Below are positions 9,871-17,973 of a DNA stretch of 64,000 nt, piece by piece (within the stretch, counting starts at the first letter, position 1; every line of letters begins with the position of its first letter). The notes beneath the pieces are model-generated. The model saw only the letters and a program-made list of their open reading frames with translations. It was not told where the DNA came from and searched no databases. The translations under genes were made by a program, and so were the position numbers. The stretch lies in NCBI GenBank assembly GCA_017303895.1, contig JAFLBF010000002.1, positions 124,001 to 188,000 of the forward strand, given 5' to 3'. The stretch is from Bacteroidota bacterium (lineage in GTDB: Bacteria; Bacteroidota; Bacteroidia; 2-12-FULL-35-15).

Positions 9871-10470
9871 CTATTTTGCTGAATGTCTGGTTTCTAATAC
9901 TTTAATAATATCGCTCAAGGAAAAATCCTTTGCTGAAAGTAGGATCAGATAATGGTAAAGAAGGTCTGCCGCTTCATTTTTGAATAATTCTTCATTATTG
10001 TCTTTAGCTTCGATCACAAGTTCCACAGCCTCTTCGCCTACTTTTTGGGCAATTTTATTGATCCCTTTTTTAAATAAACTGGAGGTGTAGGATTGATCGC
10101 TCGGATTTGCTTTTCGGTCGAGGATGATCTTTTCAAGTTTTAGAAGAAAATCAGTGCCGGCATTTATTTCATTAAAACAGGTATCCTGTCCGGTGTGACA
10201 AATGGGCCCGAGTGGATCTGCTTTGATCAATAATGTATCATCATCACAGTCGATCTTTATTTCCTTTACCTTTAAAAAATGACCGCTTTCTTCACCTTTG
10301 GTCCATAATCTGTTTTTGGAACGGGAGAAAAAAGTAACAAGCTTCTTTTCTGAAGTTTTTTCAAATGCTTCCTTATTCATATAGCCAAGCATTAGTACTC
10401 TGTTTGTAGAGGAATCTTGGATGATGGCTGGAATTAATCCATCTGCCGATTTATTAAAGTCTGGTTTCAT
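9871..10470 (-). CDS. hisIE: Bifunctional phosphoribosyl-AMP cyclohydrolase / phosphoribosyl-ATP pyrophosphatase
   Basis: This enzyme carries out the second and third steps of histidine synthesis. The N-terminal HisI part (about residues 1-110) has [14 protein letters not shown] and [15 protein letters not shown], with the metal-binding Asp and Cys residues; the C-terminal HisE part (about 112-199) has [15 protein letters not shown] and [14 protein letters not shown], with the acidic metal ligands. It is the last gene of the operon, and its ATG overlaps the hisF stop by 4 bases. At 199 residues it has the usual fused length. Confidence 0.96.
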
Positions 10471-11222
10471 GATCTTATGGGTATGTTTAGTTCTTTTAAA
10501 TAATCTTTTAGCTCTTTTATCTCAATCTCTTTAAAATGAAATACGCTGGCTGCAAGAGCTGCGTCTGCTTTCCCTTTAATAAATGCATCAGCAAAGTGCC
10601 GCATCGTTCCTGCTCCCCCACTTGCTATTACGGGAACATTTACACTCTCAGAAATAAGCATTGTGATATCATTGGCAAAGCCATTTTTTGTGCCATCATT
10701 GTTCATTGATGTGAGCAAAATTTCTCCTGCACCCATTGCTACGCCTTGTTTTGCCCAGTCGATGGCTTTGATCTCCGTTTTTACTTTTCCTCCGTTCAGA
10801 TATACATACCAGTCGTTATTTTCAAATTTTGTATCGATCGCTAAAACGATACATTGACTTCCAAATTGATCGGCCAGCCTTTTGATTAGACCGGGATCTT
10901 TGAATGCGGAAGTATTAACAGATATTTTGTCGGCTCCTGAGCGAAGTAATAAACCAACATCTTCAACAGTACTGATTCCTCCACCTACAGTAAACGGAAT
11001 ATTAATATGTTTAGCTATGCGAGTTACCAACTCGGTTAATGTTTTTCTCTTTTCATTAGTGGCAGTTATATCCAAAAAAACCAATTCATCTGCTCCTTTT
11101 TTTGCATATTCAATAGCCAATTCTACCGGATCACCTGCATCACGAATGTTTTCAAAATTAACTCCCTTTACTGTTCTTCCGTCTTTGATGTCCAGACAAG
11201 GTATGATCCGTTTAGTTAACAT
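10467..11222 (-). CDS. hisF: Imidazole glycerol phosphate synthase cyclase subunit
   Basis: HisF is the (beta/alpha)8-barrel partner of HisH, converting PRFAR plus ammonia to imidazole glycerol phosphate and AICAR. Residues 1-15 ([15 protein letters not shown]) contain the catalytic Asp in PCLDIK, and LAIDTK near residue 130 contains the second one. Phosphate-binding loops TVGGGIS and ASGGAGT are present. At 251 residues it is standard. The start overlaps the hisA end by 11 bases and the stop overlaps hisIE by 4, so these genes are translationally coupled. Confidence 0.97.
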
Positions 11223-11934
11223 ATCTTTTAAATTCGTTTAAAGTTATTTTGCCTTCATAGATCGCCTTCCCTACAATTACTGCATTGCAGCCGATTGTAT
11301 TTAATTCTTCGACATCTTTAATACAAGAAACGCCACCGCTTGCAATGAAATTAATATTCTTGAAGCGATCGATGATCTTTTTGTACAATTCTGTTGATGG
11401 CCCTTGTAAAAGTCCGTCTTTGCTTATGTCCGTACAAAAAACATTTTTTACTCCTTGTTGAATATTCTCATCCATAAAATCTAAAATATTGATATCTGTG
11501 CTTTCTAGCCATCCGCTCACAGCGATCTTTTCATCTTTTACATCAGCACCAAGCATTATTTTATCAGCTCCATATTTCTTTAGCCATGCAAAGAATAATT
11601 CTTTTTTTTTAACAGCAATACTGCCAATCGTAGCCATATGTGCACCCGCATCAAATACAGATTGAATGTTTTCATCTGTTTTTATCCCTCCTCCAAAATC
11701 GATAGTTAGTTTGGTTTGTGATGCAATGGTCTCTAATACTTTTTGGTTTATAACCTTGCCTGCTTTTGCTCCATCCAGATCGACAAGGTGTAATCGTTTA
11801 ATGCCAATGTCTTCAAACATTTGAGCCACCTCTAATGGATTTTTATTATAAATCGTTTTTTGAGCATAATCACCTTGTGAAAGGCGCACACACTTACCAT
11901 CAATGAGATCAATAGCCGGTATTATTTCAATCAT
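11212..11934 (-). CDS. hisA: ProFAR isomerase
   Basis: HisA isomerises the aminoaldose ProFAR to PRFAR. The barrel begins [15 protein letters not shown] with the catalytic Asp in AIDL; the second catalytic acid is in [14 protein letters not shown] near residue 130-175, and the phosphate loops are DFGGGIK and ASGGVSC. The length of 240 residues is normal. The start overlaps the hisH stop by 4 bases. Some HisA proteins double as PriA-type TrpF/HisA enzymes, but nothing in the visible motifs suggests that here. Confidence 0.96.
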
Positions 11935-12518
11935 ATATTTAAAAAGTTGGATAATAATGTTTGTCCTGCTTCACTTGATTTTTCCGGGTGAAACTGCACT
12001 GCATAAAAATTGTTTTTTTGTATAGCGGAGCTGTATTCAACTCCATAATTTGTAGTGGCGATTGTTTCTTGGTATTTTTCCACATAATAGCTATGGACAA
12101 AGTACATGTATTCTTTTTCTTTAATTCCTTTGAATAGTTCTGATCGATAGTTGAAAATAGTATTCCATCCTATTTGCGGAACTTTTAAGTTATTCTCTTT
12201 GTTGAATAGTTTTACAGTAGAGTCAAAAATTCCTAAACATTCAGCATTGCCTTCTTCGGTGTGTTTGCACATCAATTGCATCCCCAAGCAGATTCCCAAT
12301 GTAGGTTGTTTTAGAGAGCAAATAACTTGATCGAGATTAGCATTCTTTAAGTATTTCATTGCACTACTGGCTTCGCCAACTCCCGGAAAAATAACTTTGT
12401 CTGCTTGTTGTATTTCCTCGGAATTGTCTGTAATAACAGGTGTTATTCCTAGTCTTTCCAGAGCAAATGTAACCGACTGAATATTTCCTGCATTGTATTT
12501 TATGATCGCTACTTTCAT
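11931..12518 (-). CDS. hisH: Imidazole glycerol phosphate synthase glutaminase subunit
   Basis: HisH is a class I glutamine amidotransferase that feeds ammonia to HisF. The nucleophile Cys is in TLGICLGMQLM (about residue 77), the His-x-Glu pair is in VQFHPEKSSEAG near the C-terminus, and the oxyanion-region VIFPGVGEA is present. The 195-residue length is typical. The ATG immediately follows the hisB stop, and the stop overlaps hisA, which keeps the HisH and HisF genes close and stoichiometrically expressed. Confidence 0.97.
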   Translation of the reverse strand: MKVAIIKYNAGNIQSVTFALERLGITPVITDNSEEIQQADKVIFPGVGEASSAMKYLKNANLDQVICSLKQPTLGICLGMQLMCKHTEEGNAECLGIFDSTVKLFNKENNLKVPQIGWNTIFNYRSELFKGIKEKEYMYFVHSYYVEKYQETIATTNYGVEYSSAIQKNNFYAVQFHPEKSSEAGQTLLSNFLNI

Positions 12519-13628
12519 TTATAATACTCCTTTTGTGCTTGGAAGATTCATATTATTTGGATCTCTCTTTATCGCCATTTTAATTGCTTTTGCAAATGCT
12601 TTAAAAATGGCCTCTATCTTATGATGTTCGTTTTGGCCCTCTGCTTTGATATTTAAATTGCATTTTGAGGCATCGCTGAATGATTTAAAAAAGTGAAAGA
12701 ACATTTCCGTTGGCATCTCTCCGATCTTTTCTCTTTTAAATTCAGCTTCCCACATGATCCAGTTTCTGCCTCCAAAGTCGATTGCAACTTGTGCCAAACA
12801 ATCATCCATAGGTAGTAAAAATCCATATCGTTCAATGCCCATTTTATTATTCAGTGCTTTTGAAAATGCTTCTCCTAAAGCGATTCCAATGTCCTCGATC
12901 GTATGGTGTTCATCAATGTGCAAGTCGCCTTTTGCATCAATGTTGAGGTCGATATTGCCATGTTTGGCAATTTGTTCCAGCATGTGATCAAAAAATGCAA
13001 GTCCGGTTGAAATAGATGATCTTCCACTACCATCTAAATTTAACTCAATGTTTATTTTCGTTTCATTGGTGTTGCGTTCGTGTTTGATCTTTCGCTCAGG
13101 CAATTTTAAAAATTGATAGATCTCTTCCCAATTGCTAACAATGGCTGAAATGTCATTTTCAAATCCATCACTTTTATCATAATTTTTTATCAGAATAGCT
13201 TTACTTCCTATGTTTTTTGCGAGTTTAATATCTGTCAGACGATCACCTATCACATACGAATTAGCAAGGTCATATTCGCCCGATAAATACTTCGTAAGCA
13301 TACCTGTATTCGGTTTTCGAGTTGGTTTGTTCTCGTATTCAAATGTTTTGTCAATACAAACTTCGGAGAATTTTATTCCTTCACTTTCTAATGTTTGCAT
13401 CATCATGTTGTGAACCGGCCAGAAAGTATGTTCTGGGTAGCTTTCTGTACCTAGTCCATCCTGATTGGTTACCATTACCAATTCATAGTCAAGTTCTCTA
13501 ACTATTTTCCCTAACCAAGTGATCACTCCCGGAAGAAATTTGAATTTGTCAAAGCTGTCGATCTGAAATGTATCAGGTGGCTCCCAAATGAGTGTTCCAT
13601 CTCTATCGATAAATAATATTTTTTTCAT
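12519..13628 (-). CDS. hisB: Bifunctional histidinol-phosphatase / imidazoleglycerol-phosphate dehydratase
   Basis: The protein fuses two pathway steps. Residues 1-165 are a HAD-type histidinol-phosphate phosphatase with the nucleophile motif [12 protein letters not shown] and the later [13 protein letters not shown]. Residues about 175-369 are the IGP dehydratase, with the two metal-binding repeats [12 protein letters not shown] / [17 protein letters not shown] and [17 protein letters not shown] total of 369 residues matches the fused HisB form found in enterobacteria and Bacteroidota, so no separate histidinol phosphatase is required. It is packed between hisC (3-base gap) and hisH (no gap). 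Confidence 0.97.
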
Positions 13629-13631
13629 AAC

Positions 13632-14699
13632 TTATGAATTGAATTGTTTCAATGTATTTATTAATGTTTCATTTTCTTTTACAGTTCCAATTGTAATTCT
13701 TAAACAGCCTTCACAAAGCATCACGTTTGTTCTGTTGCGAACGATGATCTGTTTGCCTTCCAGGAATTGATATGTTTTATTCGCATCCTTCACCTTAATC
13801 AATAAAAAATTAGCTTCACTTGGATAGATACGCTCAACAAAAAAAAGTGTAGAAAGTTCCTTTCTTAGTTTTTCTCTTTCTGTAACAATTTCTTTGATCC
13901 ATGCATTTACTTTATCAATATTGCTTAATGCTTCTACTGCCAGCTTTTGAGACGCGATATTAATATTGTAAGGAGGTTTTATCTTATTGAAAATATCAAT
14001 AATTGGTTCCGATGCGAATGCCATTCCGATTCTTAATCCTGCTAAACCCCAAGCTTTCGAGAGTGTTTGAAGAATGACAAGATTGGGGTAGTTTAATAAT
14101 TCCGGAATCAAACTACGGTAGCTGGCAAAGTTAATGTAGGCTTCATCCACGATCACTATACCGGTAAAGTTGTCGAGAATGTTTTTTATGGAACTCCATG
14201 CAACGCTATTACCTGTGGGATTATTTGGGCAGCAAATAAAGATCAGTTTCGTGTTGCTGTCTATCGCCTTAATTACATTCTCTGTGTCTAATTGGAATTC
14301 CTCTTTGGTCAATGGGACTTTTTTGATCTGAACATCATTGATATTAGCTGATACCTCATACATGCCATAAGTAGGTGGGCAAATAATAATATTGTCTTTC
14401 CCCGGGTTACAAAAGGCTCTAAAAAGAATGTCGATCGCTTCATCGCTACCATTACCAAGAAAAATATTTTCAATAGGCAATCCTTTTATTTTACTAATCT
14501 TTTCTTTTACATCAATTTGCATCGGGTCAGGATATCTGTTCAATGCTATTGCTTTCTCGGATTGGACAGGTGATCCAAATGAATTTTCATTAGCGTCCAG
14601 AAAGATGCCCTCTTTCCCTTTATATTCATCACGTGCAGAAGAATAAGGAACTAGCTTTTTTATATTCTCTCTTGTGATCGTATTTAAATCGAAATTCAT
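13632..14699 (-). CDS. hisC: Histidinol-phosphate aminotransferase
   Basis: HisC is a fold-type I PLP aminotransferase that makes histidinol phosphate. The PLP-binding Lys lies in LQTLSKAWGLAGLRIG (about residue 211), with the upstream NPTGN motif (CCPNNPTGNSV) and IVDEAYINF supplying the cofactor-stacking Asp and Tyr. At 355 residues it has the normal size. It is the third gene of the operon, between hisD and hisB, with gaps of 12 and 3 bases. Confidence 0.96.
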   Translation of the reverse strand: MNFDLNTITRENIKKLVPYSSARDEYKGKEGIFLDANENSFGSPVQSEKAIALNRYPDPMQIDVKEKISKIKGLPIENIFLGNGSDEAIDILFRAFCNPGKDNIIICPPTYGMYEVSANINDVQIKKVPLTKEEFQLDTENVIKAIDSNTKLIFICCPNNPTGNSVAWSSIKNILDNFTGIVIVDEAYINFASYRSLIPELLNYPNLVILQTLSKAWGLAGLRIGMAFASEPIIDIFNKIKPPYNINIASQKLAVEALSNIDKVNAWIKEIVTEREKLRKELSTLFFVERIYPSEANFLLIKVKDANKTYQFLEGKQIIVRNRTNVMLCEGCLRITIGTVKENETLINTLKQFNS

Positions 14700-14711
14700 G
14701 ATCTCTTAATT

Positions 14712-16004
14712 TTAAAGTGATTTTAATCTTAAAGTTACAGCATTTTTGTGAGCATCCAATCCTTCCGCTTCTGCCATTAGTTCAATGCTTTTTCCAATAT
14801 TTTGAATGCCTTCTTTACTAAGTTTTTGAAATGTTACTTTTTTTACAAAACTATCCAATGATACACCACTGTATGATTTTGCATATCCATTTGTAGGAAG
14901 TGTATGGTTGGTTCCTGATGCATAATCACCTGCACTTTCGCAGGAATAGTTGCCTATAAAAACTGATCCGGCATTGACAACTTGATTGGCAATTTTCTCA
15001 GGTTCATTACAAGCCAATATCAAGTGTTCGGGTGCATATTCATTTAGCAGCTCCATTCCTTCTGCTAAAGTATTGACTAGGATCGCTTTACTGTTAGCTA
15101 AGGCTTTTGTTGCAATATCTCTACGTGGTAATTGCTCTAATTGTTTTTTTAGTTCTTTGGCTACTTCTGCAATTGTTTGTTCATTGTCGGATACAAGTAT
15201 TACTTGTGAGTCTGCTCCATGTTCTGCTTGCGACAACAGATCGGCCGCAACATATGAAGCAACGCAATTGGTGTCAGCCAAAACAGCAAGTTCTGAAGGA
15301 CCTGCAGGCATATCGATCGCAATGCCAGATTTGTTGATGAGTTGCTTGGCGCAGGTGACATATTGATTTCCCGGACCAAAAATTTTATACACTTTAGTCA
15401 CACTTTCAGTTCCAAATGCCATAGCACCAATTGCTTGAACGCCCCCTATTTTAAATATTTTTGTTATACCAGTAAGTTGAGCTGTATACAAAATAGCATC
15501 GTTTACTTTTCCGTTTTTGTCGGGAGGAGTACATAAGACAATTTCTTTACATCCTGCAATTTTAGCAGGAATAGACAACATCAAAATGGTGGAGAAAAGG
15601 GGAGCTGAGCCTCCGGGAATATAGAGGCCGACTTTTTCTATTGCTATCGACCTTCTCCAGCATTCTACCCCATTAGTGGTTTCGATAATTGTTTCTTTTT
15701 CGCGTTGTGAATTGTGAAATTTTTCAATGTTGGATTTTGCAGTTTGTATAGCTGCTTTTAGTTCTTCGGTAACATTATTTATTGCATTCGATATTTCATC
15801 AGATCCAACCGAAAAGTTGCTTAGATCAATTCCATCAAATTTTTTAGTGTATTTACGAATCGCTTCATCTCCATTCTTGCGAATATCAATCAGTACACCG
15901 TCAACTGTTTCTTCAAGCGATACACTATCAATAACAGGTCGCTGTAAGATCTTTTGCCATTCCGACTTTTCCGGATATTTGATTGTTTGTAACATAGTAT
16001 TCAT
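14712..16004 (-). CDS. hisD: Histidinol dehydrogenase
   Basis: HisD oxidises histidinol to histidine with NAD in two steps and is zinc dependent. Diagnostic blocks are YIPGGSAPLFSTILM, IFGPGNQYVTCAKQ, DMPAGPSELAVLAD, SQAEHGADSQVIL with Zn-binding Gln and His, and APEHLILA with the catalytic Glu-His; GTNHTLPTNGYAKSYSG is also present. At 430 residues it is full length. Translation may begin at ATG 16004 or at the second ATG nine bases on (MLQTIKYPEK), which resembles other HisD N-termini equally well. It starts 8 bases after the hisG stop. Confidence 0.96.
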   Translation of the reverse strand: MNTMLQTIKYPEKSEWQKILQRPVIDSVSLEETVDGVLIDIRKNGDEAIRKYTKKFDGIDLSNFSVGSDEISNAINNVTEELKAAIQTAKSNIEKFHNSQREKETIIETTNGVECWRRSIAIEKVGLYIPGGSAPLFSTILMLSIPAKIAGCKEIVLCTPPDKNGKVNDAILYTAQLTGITKIFKIGGVQAIGAMAFGTESVTKVYKIFGPGNQYVTCAKQLINKSGIAIDMPAGPSELAVLADTNCVASYVAADLLSQAEHGADSQVILVSDNEQTIAEVAKELKKQLEQLPRRDIATKALANSKAILVNTLAEGMELLNEYAPEHLILACNEPEKIANQVVNAGSVFIGNYSCESAGDYASGTNHTLPTNGYAKSYSGVSLDSFVKKVTFQKLSKEGIQNIGKSIELMAEAEGLDAHKNAVTLRLKSL

Positions 16005-16012
16005 GCAATTGA

Positions 16013-16873
16013 TTATAAGATCATTTTTTCAATAGGTACGACTAAAATTCCTTGTGCGCCTTTTTCTTTTAACTTTTCAATGATATCCCAAAATTCATTT
16101 TCATTTACTACACTATGAACAGAACTCCAGCCTTTGTCAGCTAATGGAAGTATTGTTGGACTTTTCATGCCGGGTAATATTTTGCAGATAGCATCCAGGT
16201 TCTCATTGGGTGCATTCAATAAAATGTATTTATTGTTTTTCGATTTTTTTACAGCATTGATACGGAAAAGTAATTTGTCCAAGATCTCTTGCTGCTTTTT
16301 GTTCAACTTCTTATTAGATGCAATTACCGCTTCCGATTTCAGGATCACTTCAGCTTCCTTTAATCCATTGGTAAATAATGTACTTCCCGAACTTACCAGG
16401 TCACAAATAGCATCGGCCAGTCCAATACTTGGAGCGATCTCAACCGATCCACTGATCTCGTGAATTTCTGCATTTACTTTGTTTTTCTTTAAATACTTGG
16501 CAAGAATAGTAGAATAACTGGTAGCTATTTTTTTGCCTTCCAGGTCCTGGATACCTTTGTATTTCTGATTTTTTGGGATAGCGATGGATAAGCGGCATTT
16601 CCCAAATCCCAAACGATCAACAATTTTTACCTCTTTATTTTTCTCTAATAGAACGTTTTCTCCTACAATGCCTATGTCGGCAATGCCGTCCTCTACATAT
16701 TGGGGAATATCATCGTCACGCAAAAAGAAAACTTCTAGAGGGAAATTATATGCTTCTGCTTTTAATTTGTTGAGCCCATTGTTAAACTCGATACCTGCTT
16801 CTTTTAAGATTCTGATCGAATCTTCGTTTAAGCGTCCTGATTTTTGAATTGCAATTTTTAGTTTTGTTTCCAT
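16013..16873 (-). CDS. hisG: ATP phosphoribosyltransferase, long form
   Basis: HisG is the first, committed step of histidine synthesis, joining ATP and PRPP, and is the feedback-inhibited enzyme. Conserved blocks are LKIAIQKSGRLNEDS, DIGIVGENVL and the PRPP-site region DAICDLVSSGSTLFTNGL. The 286 residues include a C-terminal ACT-like regulatory domain (about 215-286: CKILPGMKSPTILPLAD ... QGILVVPIEKMI), so it is the long, self-sufficient HisG form and no HisZ is needed. It begins 16 bases after a leader terminator, placing it under attenuation control as the first structural gene. Confidence 0.97.
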   Translation of the reverse strand: METKLKIAIQKSGRLNEDSIRILKEAGIEFNNGLNKLKAEAYNFPLEVFFLRDDDIPQYVEDGIADIGIVGENVLLEKNKEVKIVDRLGFGKCRLSIAIPKNQKYKGIQDLEGKKIATSYSTILAKYLKKNKVNAEIHEISGSVEIAPSIGLADAICDLVSSGSTLFTNGLKEAEVILKSEAVIASNKKLNKKQQEILDKLLFRINAVKKSKNNKYILLNAPNENLDAICKILPGMKSPTILPLADKGWSSVHSVVNENEFWDIIEKLKEKGAQGILVVPIEKMIL

Positions 16874-16889
16874 GTTTTTTGATAAAATA

Positions 16890-16920
16890 AAAAGGGCTTA
16901 CCGATCTGGTAAGCCCTTTT
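16890..16920 (-). terminator. Attenuator terminator hairpin in the his leader
   Basis: A perfect 13-bp stem (arms 16890-16902 and 16908-16920, arm sequence AAAAGGGCTTACC) closes a 5-base loop. In the minus-strand RNA it is followed by a U-rich run ending 16 bases before the hisG start. It lies between the leader-peptide ORF and hisG, so termination here would block the whole his operon. The segment GGTAGGC at 16969-16975 (minus strand), which overlaps the leader stop codon, can pair with GCTTACC of the 5' arm (7 bp, one G-U) as a competing antiterminator. Confidence 0.85.
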
Positions 16921-16970
16921 GTTATATTGGTTTTGTTAGTTCTTTTCTAATTACACAATACATCATCTGC

Positions 16971-17021
16971 CTACCCTTTTGGATAAGTATGGTGATGATG
17001 GATATGTGTTGAATTTTTCAT
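16971..17021 (-). CDS. hisL: Histidine operon leader peptide (16 residues, 5 His codons)
   Basis: A short minus-strand ORF encodes M-K-N-S-T-H-I-H-H-H-H-T-Y-P-K-G and ends in TAG. Five of its eleven first codons are His, four of them in a row, immediately upstream of a strong terminator and the hisG gene. This is the arrangement of classic leader-peptide attenuation: stalling at His codons when charged tRNA-His is scarce would free the segment at 16969-16980 for antiterminator pairing, while completing translation to the TAG would mask it. The ATG begins only 7 bases beyond the -7 promoter box, so it may be read from a leaderless or nearly leaderless transcript. Confidence 0.9.
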   Translation of the reverse strand: MKNSTHIHHHHTYPKG

Positions 17022-17028
17022 TACGATG

Positions 17029-17061
17029 CAAATATAAATACAAAAAGTTAAAATATGCAAA
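17029..17061 (-). promoter_or_regulatory. his operon promoter (Bacteroidota -33/-7 type)
   Basis: On the minus strand the -7 box is TATATTTG (17029-17036) and a -33 TTTG lies at 17058-17061, separated by 21 bases, close to the Bacteroidota consensus TTTG-N19-21-TAnnTTTG. The box ends 7 bases before the leader-peptide ATG, which predicts a transcription start at or just before that ATG. Confidence 0.7.
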
Positions 17062-17112: not shown

Positions 17113-17973
17113 ATGAAATTAAAGACCTTTTCGCTATTATTTGTTGCACTTGCCGCGTTTTCCTTTAAGGGAGATAAAAAAGCTTATCAGCTATTTGATG
17201 CCAAAGGGAAGGAAAGTAATTATGAAAAGATGTTGAATGAAGCAAAACAGGCTGATATTATCCTTTTTGGTGAATTGCATGATAATCCGGTCAATCATTG
17301 GCTGCAAATGGAGTTAACCAAGGATCTTTATGATATAAAGAAAAAGGACCTTGTTCTGGGAGCCGAAATGTTTGAGGCTGATGATCAGGTGGCGATCAAT
17401 GAGTATTTACAAGGAAAGATCTCTGAAAAAACGCTGAAGGATGAGGTAAAACTTTGGCCAAATTTTAAAACAGATTATAAGCCATTGTTGGATTTTGCAA
17501 AGAATAATCAGTTGAATTTTGTGGCAGCAAATATTCCAAGAAGATATGCTAATCTGGTTTATAATAAGGGGATTGAAAAATTGGATAGTTTAGATGCTGA
17601 GGCTAAAAATTGGATTGCACCACTTCCTATGAAATACGATGCGAATTTAAAATGTTATAAAGATATTTTTGAATCGGCTGGTGGACATGGGGGAGAGAAT
17701 CTGCCTAAATCGCAGGCAATAAAGGATGCGACCATGGCTCATTTTATTTTAAAGAATTATTCAAAAGGGAAGTTGTTCATCCATTATAATGGTTCATATC
17801 ATAGTAACAACCATCAAGGAATTGAATGGTATTTAAAACAAGCGAATCCAAATTTGAAAGTATTTACGATTGCAGCAACGGAACAAGCCGGTTTGGACAC
17901 ACTTGCAAAAGATCTGATAGATGTAGCTAATTATATTATAGTTACTCCTGAAGGATTCACAAAAACACATTAA
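17113..17973 (+). CDS. ChaN family haem/iron-associated protein (DUF399)
   Basis: The 286 residues begin with a hydrophobic signal sequence (MKLKTFSLLFVALAAFSFKG). The ChaN/DUF399 core shows ILFGELHDNPVNHWLQ near residue 50, LGAEMFEADDQ, FVAANIPRRYA, and FIHYNGSYHSNNHQGIEWYL near 220, where His and Tyr residues occupy the haem-contacting positions described for ChaN proteins. No Cys lipobox is seen, so it is likely a soluble periplasmic form. Iron or haem binding is a family-level inference and no TonB receptor is adjacent. The next gene starts 7 bases later and may be co-transcribed. Confidence 0.8.
   Translation: MKLKTFSLLFVALAAFSFKGDKKAYQLFDAKGKESNYEKMLNEAKQADIILFGELHDNPVNHWLQMELTKDLYDIKKKDLVLGAEMFEADDQVAINEYLQGKISEKTLKDEVKLWPNFKTDYKPLLDFAKNNQLNFVAANIPRRYANLVYNKGIEKLDSLDAEAKNWIAPLPMKYDANLKCYKDIFESAGGHGGENLPKSQAIKDATMAHFILKNYSKGKLFIHYNGSYHSNNHQGIEWYLKQANPNLKVFTIAATEQAGLDTLAKDLIDVANYIIVTPEGFTKTH

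Follow-up and report, generated by a model that had tools for sequence, protein, structure and literature searches.

A predicted histidine-sensing attenuator with a His-run leader peptide upstream of hisG in a Bacteroidota bacterium

What decides whether RNA polymerase enters a his operon when a short open reading frame rich in histidine codons and an intrinsic terminator stand between the promoter and hisG? Attenuation of his operons is a textbook mechanism, and we analyzed this arrangement in a window of 64,000 nucleotides (the whole stretch of DNA under study) from a Bacteroidota bacterium, in which the complete operon hisGDCBHAF(IE), with eight genes called by NCBIfam models, lies directly downstream of the leader element. 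The initial annotation had described on the minus strand a promoter, a 16-codon ORF with a His run, a 13-bp terminator and then hisG, and all of these can be read directly in the sequence (Table 1). It had interpreted them as an attenuator, an interpretation that is well supported by the results given here. Strand 1 (CTTATCC), a protector helix involving the His codons and a predicted near-leaderless start were not part of that earlier reading.

Table 1 Coordinates of the leader element and of the his operon in the window.
Feature	Position	Strand	Basis and remarks
TTTG, -33-like promoter element	17058..17061	minus	sequence; 21-nt spacer to TATATTTG
TATATTTG, -7 element of the Bacteroidota primary sigma factor (TAnnTTTG)	17029..17036	minus	sequence; 7 nt between its G and the leader ATG
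Predicted transcription start, 5' UTR of 2-3 nt	17023..17024	minus	predicted from the spacing rule of PMC6847099
Leader ORF MKNSTHIHHHHTYPKG, M-K-N-S-T-H-I-H-H-H-H-T-Y-P-K-G	16971..17021	minus	ATG at 17021, stop TAG at 16973-16971
His codons of the leader ORF	17006-17004 and 17000-16989	minus	
Protector helix P1, 5' side	16994..17009	minus	fold; cognate versus permuted duplexes; ACACA 17009-17005 and CATCATC 17000-16994, the His codons themselves
Strand 1 (CTTATCC), partner of strand 2	16981..16987	minus	fold; 1:2 pairing in the alignment
Strand 2 (GGGTAGGC), antiterminator 5' strand, includes stop TAG	16969..16976	minus	2:3 pairing, covariation
Protector helix P1, 3' side	16953..16967	minus	fold; duplex tests; GATGATG 16967-16961 and TGTGT 16957-16953, part of it able to form the antiterminator inner helix
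Strand 3, terminator 5' arm (AAAAGGGCTTACC)	16908..16920	minus	sequence; covarying terminator helix
Strand 4, terminator 3' arm (GGTAAGCCCTTTT, 16902-16890) and T tail	16887..16902	minus	sequence, fold, covariation; AGATC between the two arms
Whole terminator, 13-bp stem and T tail	16920-16887	minus	
hisG, ATP phosphoribosyltransferase, first operon gene	16013..16873	minus	TIGR00070, TIGR03455; ATG at 16873
Remaining operon, hisD-hisIE	9871..16004	minus	NCBIfam models
hisD	14712-16004	minus	NCBIfam models
hisC	13632-14699	minus	NCBIfam models
hisB (bifunctional)	12519-13628	minus	NCBIfam models
hisH	11931-12518	minus	NCBIfam models
hisA	11212-11934	minus	NCBIfam models
hisF	10467-11222	minus	NCBIfam models
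hisIE	9871-10470	minus	NCBIfam models

Four strands and a protector helix

The pairing logic of the element is that of a classical attenuator. Strand 1 (CUUAUCC) follows closely on the His codons. Its partner is strand 2 (GGGUAGG), which holds the stop codon of the leader; the alternative partner of strand 2 is strand 3 (GCUUACC, in the 5' arm of the terminator), which also pairs with strand 4. Strand 2 can pair with the terminator 5' arm because it repeats the sequence of the 3' arm. The region thus has an ORF with codons for the end product ahead of the operon, an intrinsic terminator between this ORF and hisG, and a mutually exclusive antiterminator pairing at a suitable spacing (13 nt from the last His codon). 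The initial annotation had already proposed that GGTAGGC (16975-16969), overlapping the TAG, is complementary to GCTTACC (16914-16908); the complementarity, with one G-U pair, is both conserved and covarying. It had also proposed a second competitor, AAAAGGG (16980-16974) with CCCTTTT. This pairing is possible, but we rejected it as a conserved second competitor, since AAAA is a variable loop and the remaining letters are the first strand-2 bases of the 1:2 hairpin.

Folding the window RNA, a check suggested in the initial annotation, gave alternative structures. The His codons (CAUCAUC) pair with GAUGAUG just past strand 2, and ACACA pairs with UGUGU, forming a protector helix around the 1:2 hairpin; together with the terminator this fold reaches -39.4 kcal/mol. 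Removal of the His codons and the first part of strand 1, to mimic a stalled ribosome, let the RNA up to strand 3 fold into the antiterminator with its inner helix at -16.1 kcal/mol. With strand 1 removed, the equilibrium fold of the whole RNA still favoured the terminator over the antiterminator, and the switch must therefore be kinetic, depending on the order of transcription as in other attenuators.

On this anatomy we infer the following course of events. RNA polymerase would start 2-3 nt before the leader AUG (in some relatives apparently at the AUG itself) and a ribosome would load at the 5' tip of the mRNA without a Shine-Dalgarno sequence. With plentiful histidine, the ribosome would reach the stop codon inside strand 2 and cover this strand; the 3:4 terminator would form and the his genes would be off. 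With scarce histidine, a ribosome stalled on the His run would cover the His codons and strand 1, and strand 2, about 13 nt downstream, would be free to pair with the emerging strand 3; no terminator would form and the operon would be read. Without any ribosome, the His codons would pair with GATGATG and strand 1 would pair with strand 2 as the protector hairpin, and termination would be the default. Covering of strand 2 by a terminating ribosome is not universal: of 83 non-redundant loci, 46 have the stop codon overlapping strand 2, 35 have it downstream of this strand and 2 upstream. The median gap in these loci is 13 nt from the end of the last His codon to strand 2 and 34 nt from strand 2 to the start of the terminator. 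The codons that frequently follow the His run, Leu-Pro-x-Gly/Arg-stop, read CTTACC-NAA-NGGTAAG and thereby form a small 1:2 hairpin with the stop inside strand 2.

Conservation, covariation and rival explanations

The initial annotation had made its interpretation depend on conservation of the His run and the terminator in related genomes, and both are kept across the genus, among 80 named related loci and in an even sample of the class. hisG is present in 18 of the 36 genus genomes, some of which are incomplete assemblies; all 16 genus hisG loci with a full upstream region have a His-run ORF and, after it, a terminator-like hairpin. A short ORF passing the His-run filter was found at 75 of the 80 named loci, which come from a genome collection and include Chitinophaga, Niastella, Flavihumibacter, Puia, Marivirga and many MAGs. 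In the even class sample, 55 of 61 readable hisG upstream regions carry a His-run leader (48 of them with the terminator as well), against 2.9% of shuffled upstream regions, and the leader is thus present more often than by chance. Two loci deserve a separate word. The hisG upstream region of L026 has a promoter directly before the terminator and lacks the leader ORF; provided that the assembly is correct, this is a leader deletion that arose naturally. In L017/L020 (G031:C1:63506-64165) hisG is interrupted by stop codons while the leader, strands and terminator upstream are intact, which is possibly a his operon in recent decay.

An alignment of 39 sequences showed paired cells in 98.9% of cases for helix 2:3, 85.9% for 1:2 and 98.5% for 3:4. 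The terminator helix 3:4 has several two-sided, compensatory changes. The dominant core GGTAAGC:GCTTACC is nearly invariant, and within it the 2:3 helix is almost without two-sided changes, a constraint that may come from each strand having to fit two partners. Other lineages have found other solutions for 2:3, namely CAGGCG or AGACG with CGTCTG (L011, L012, L014, L015), CAGGCGAGG with CGCCTG (L093), CAGGTAG with CTACCTG (L136) and CGCCGG with CCGGCG (L138). In a set of 34 loci, chosen to represent each distinct strand-3 core once, the cognate 2:3 duplexes had a mean of -9.8 kcal/mol versus -8.1 kcal/mol for permuted ones and none of 20,000 permutations did as well, a number that ignores relatedness and is not a strict probability. 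Strands 2 and 3 therefore covary across 34 distinct terminator sequences. RNAalifold, run on a MAFFT alignment, recovered neither the 1:2 helix nor the protector helix, we believe because of alignment slippage, and was replaced by duplex tests on each locus. In these tests the protector segments of 83 loci scored -12.0 when cognate versus -10.1 when permuted (z -8.3, 0 of 20,000); in 45 thinned loci z was -6.2, and control segment pairs were flat. Limiting the test to codons upstream of the His run reduced z to -2.2 (thinned, z -1.3 and p about 0.1), so much of the protector preference rests on the His-run segment. Covariation supports the protector helix, weakly outside that segment.

These observations bear on three other explanations. 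A terminator with alternative pairings is compatible with any attenuation signal, and a riboswitch, a T-box-like RNA or a leader-binding protein could control it independently of ribosomes, the His run being incidental. The His run, however, is the most conserved coding feature of the leader and keeps a fixed distance of 13 nt from strand 2, its codons are built into the switch through the protector helix, and no Rfam family reaches its threshold in the window; we consider such sensing very unlikely.

Alternatively, the leader may act on translation or mRNA stability instead of termination, a stalled ribosome protecting the mRNA or re-initiating at hisG. Short distances between leader and gene have been proposed as an aid to re-initiation (PMC4833913), and upstream of hisG in nine Cytophagales-type loci (L058, L076, L083, L089, L091, L198, L206, L217, L228) we found a His leader, often ending in HHSS and the stop codon, with a hairpin ATTCCTC..GAGGAAT over the stop and mostly without an intrinsic terminator. 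These leaders possibly represent a second, terminator-less mode involving Rho or translation. In the window and its relatives, by contrast, an excellent terminator is accompanied by a covarying competitor, and an action on translation or stability there is still less probable than ribosome-independent sensing. Finally, that the hairpin merely terminates an upstream transcript, the short ORF being due to chance and hisG having its own downstream promoter, is hardly credible: it is a strong intrinsic terminator only 16 nt ahead of the hisG ATG, but the neighbouring gene (17113-17973) is divergent from the operon, leaving no annotated transcript to run into the element, the interval from 16890 to 16873 is too short for a promoter, the leader and terminator are conserved together across the class, and strands 2 and 3 covary. 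With high confidence we take the element to be an attenuator of his operon transcription that is mediated by the ribosome and responds to charged tRNA-His.

A predicted near-leaderless start and leaders of other operons

In F. johnsoniae transcription starts 4-5 nt past the TAHHTTTG element (PMC6847099). An exact TAnnTTTG lies nearby in 78 of 92 hisG loci with a leader. Counted from the G of the motif, the leader start codon usually follows after 4-9 nt; the median is 8 nt, there are peaks at 4 and 7-8, and the distance is 9 nt or less in 49 loci and 12 nt or less in 59. Of 529 ordinary ORFs in these loci, for which the gene starts are crude, only 31 carry the motif within 60 nt, 7 of them within 12 nt. 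The 7-nt distance in the window predicts the very short 5' UTR given in Table 1, and a distance of 4 would predict an AUG at +1. As judged from this spacing, the leader mRNA is probably nearly leaderless. Such spacing is common and not universal, the distance being 18-20 nt in the subclade L011-L015. Elsewhere in Bacteroidota, transcripts that are leaderless or have a very short 5' UTR are rare, about 4-6%: about 3.7% of 5' UTRs are under 10 nt in B. thetaiotaomicron (PMC7366714), and 5.5% of transcripts are leaderless in F. psychrophilum (PMC9723704).

A covariance model built in this work (R1) matched in 50 of 392 phylum genomes under strict filters. The 20 weaker or unusual matches that were read proved mostly to be further his leaders; three matches (L128, L133, L141) have no leader and are likely due to chance. 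In the window genome the search led to a Lys-rich leader before asd, the gene for aspartate-semialdehyde dehydrogenase (L123, G000:C29:11563-11670, minus strand). Leaders of this type read MICKNKKHNMKRFQQGKGQ, MTLKNKKHGKKHFQTGKVN and similar, with GGAAAGG as strand 2, a CCTTTCC/GGAAAGG terminator and a predicted near-leaderless start, and they recur in about ten relatives (L145, L146, L147, L149, L150, L153-L155, L163). We regard them as candidate lysine-sensing attenuators with the layout of the his element; a narrow search of the literature on lysine leader peptides gave no result. A distant family of the phylum has an Ile/Val/Thr-rich leader (MITHTTITVIINVIGTKYRPGK, then stop) and a terminator ahead of ilvD, which together make a candidate branched-chain/Thr attenuator (L137, G089:C11:333423-333530).

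Three further observations were made alongside. An attenuator-like element precedes an aldo/keto reductase-like gene in the window genome (L122, G000:C1:287936-288071, minus strand), with GGAAAGCC as strand 2, GGCTTTCC as terminator and an ORF lacking a clear codon run; it may be a decayed copy. In another family (L229-L232) leaders such as NHHLHLHHRR and QHVHFHHRHERR, each followed by a stop, carry a stem ATCGCC..GGCGAT directly on the last His codons, and no clear terminator adjoins hisG. A search of the window genome for trp, ilv and phe leaders detected neither ilvD nor prephenate dehydratase and only one chorismate-binding enzyme, which has no attenuator-like leader; considering these two missing genes and the occurrence of hisG in half of the genus genomes, amino-acid pathways seem to be lost piecemeal.

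A single phylum-wide Bacteroidota attenuator, in which the control ORF would be read from a bare or near-bare 5' end, the sensing codons would lie in a protector helix and other codon runs would be re-used (Lys before asd; Ile/Val/Thr before ilvD), is a tentative generalization to which we give a little less than even credence.

Comparison with known systems

The element shares with the enteric his attenuator (RF00514, His_leader) a His-run leader, mutually exclusive pairings and an intrinsic terminator just before hisG. It differs in having no Shine-Dalgarno sequence, a predicted near-leaderless start, other strand sequences and a nested protector helix. The RF00514 model did not match at the window locus (G000:C12:140888-141009), even at E 1, and gave only weak matches at other places in the genome, none above the cut-off. 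An Rfam scan of the window found no family at the gathering threshold, and hence no match to a characterised riboswitch or T-box. Weak Phe_leader and Thr_leader matches, which cover little beyond the terminator side (16886-16967) and fall far under the cut-offs, were discarded.

Mycobacteria have leaderless leader ORFs with cysteine runs. Our element is predicted to resemble these in that a short ORF at the 5' end of the mRNA, with a run of one codon, controls the downstream operon, and they differ in phylum, amino acid and genes; we know of no intrinsic-terminator four-strand switch among them. A comparative study by Vitreschak and colleagues (2004, FEMS Microbiol Lett) reportedly touched on other phyla as well.

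A survey of 2010 stated that leader peptides had, to its authors' knowledge, previously been shown only in Proteobacteria and Actinobacteria, and itself found them in bacilli (PMC2965389). For Bacteroidetes, our search of the literature on his attenuation returned a single remark: the 2021 F. psychrophilum transcriptome describes strong clues for leader-peptide attenuation ahead of operons for amino acids, including structured elements upstream of hisG and pheA which are conserved among Flavobacteriaceae and have no Rfam family (PMC9723704). Those elements share with ours the phylum, the gene hisG and the lack of an Rfam family; the main text of that study gives no anatomy, and the present work adds the strands, their covariation, the predicted near-leaderless start and another lineage.

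This one-line remark is thereby turned into a testable, annotated switch kept across a class whose members mostly lack Shine-Dalgarno sequences, and a new Rfam family for the his leader element would be warranted. Should translation of the leader begin at a bare 5' end, attenuation that depends on coupling would not require a ribosome binding site, and the element would offer a compact reporter for leaderless initiation and transcription-translation coupling in Bacteroidota. In all, this kind of switch is already known; what is new compared with the systems above is the lineage, the anatomy and the predicted near-leaderless start.
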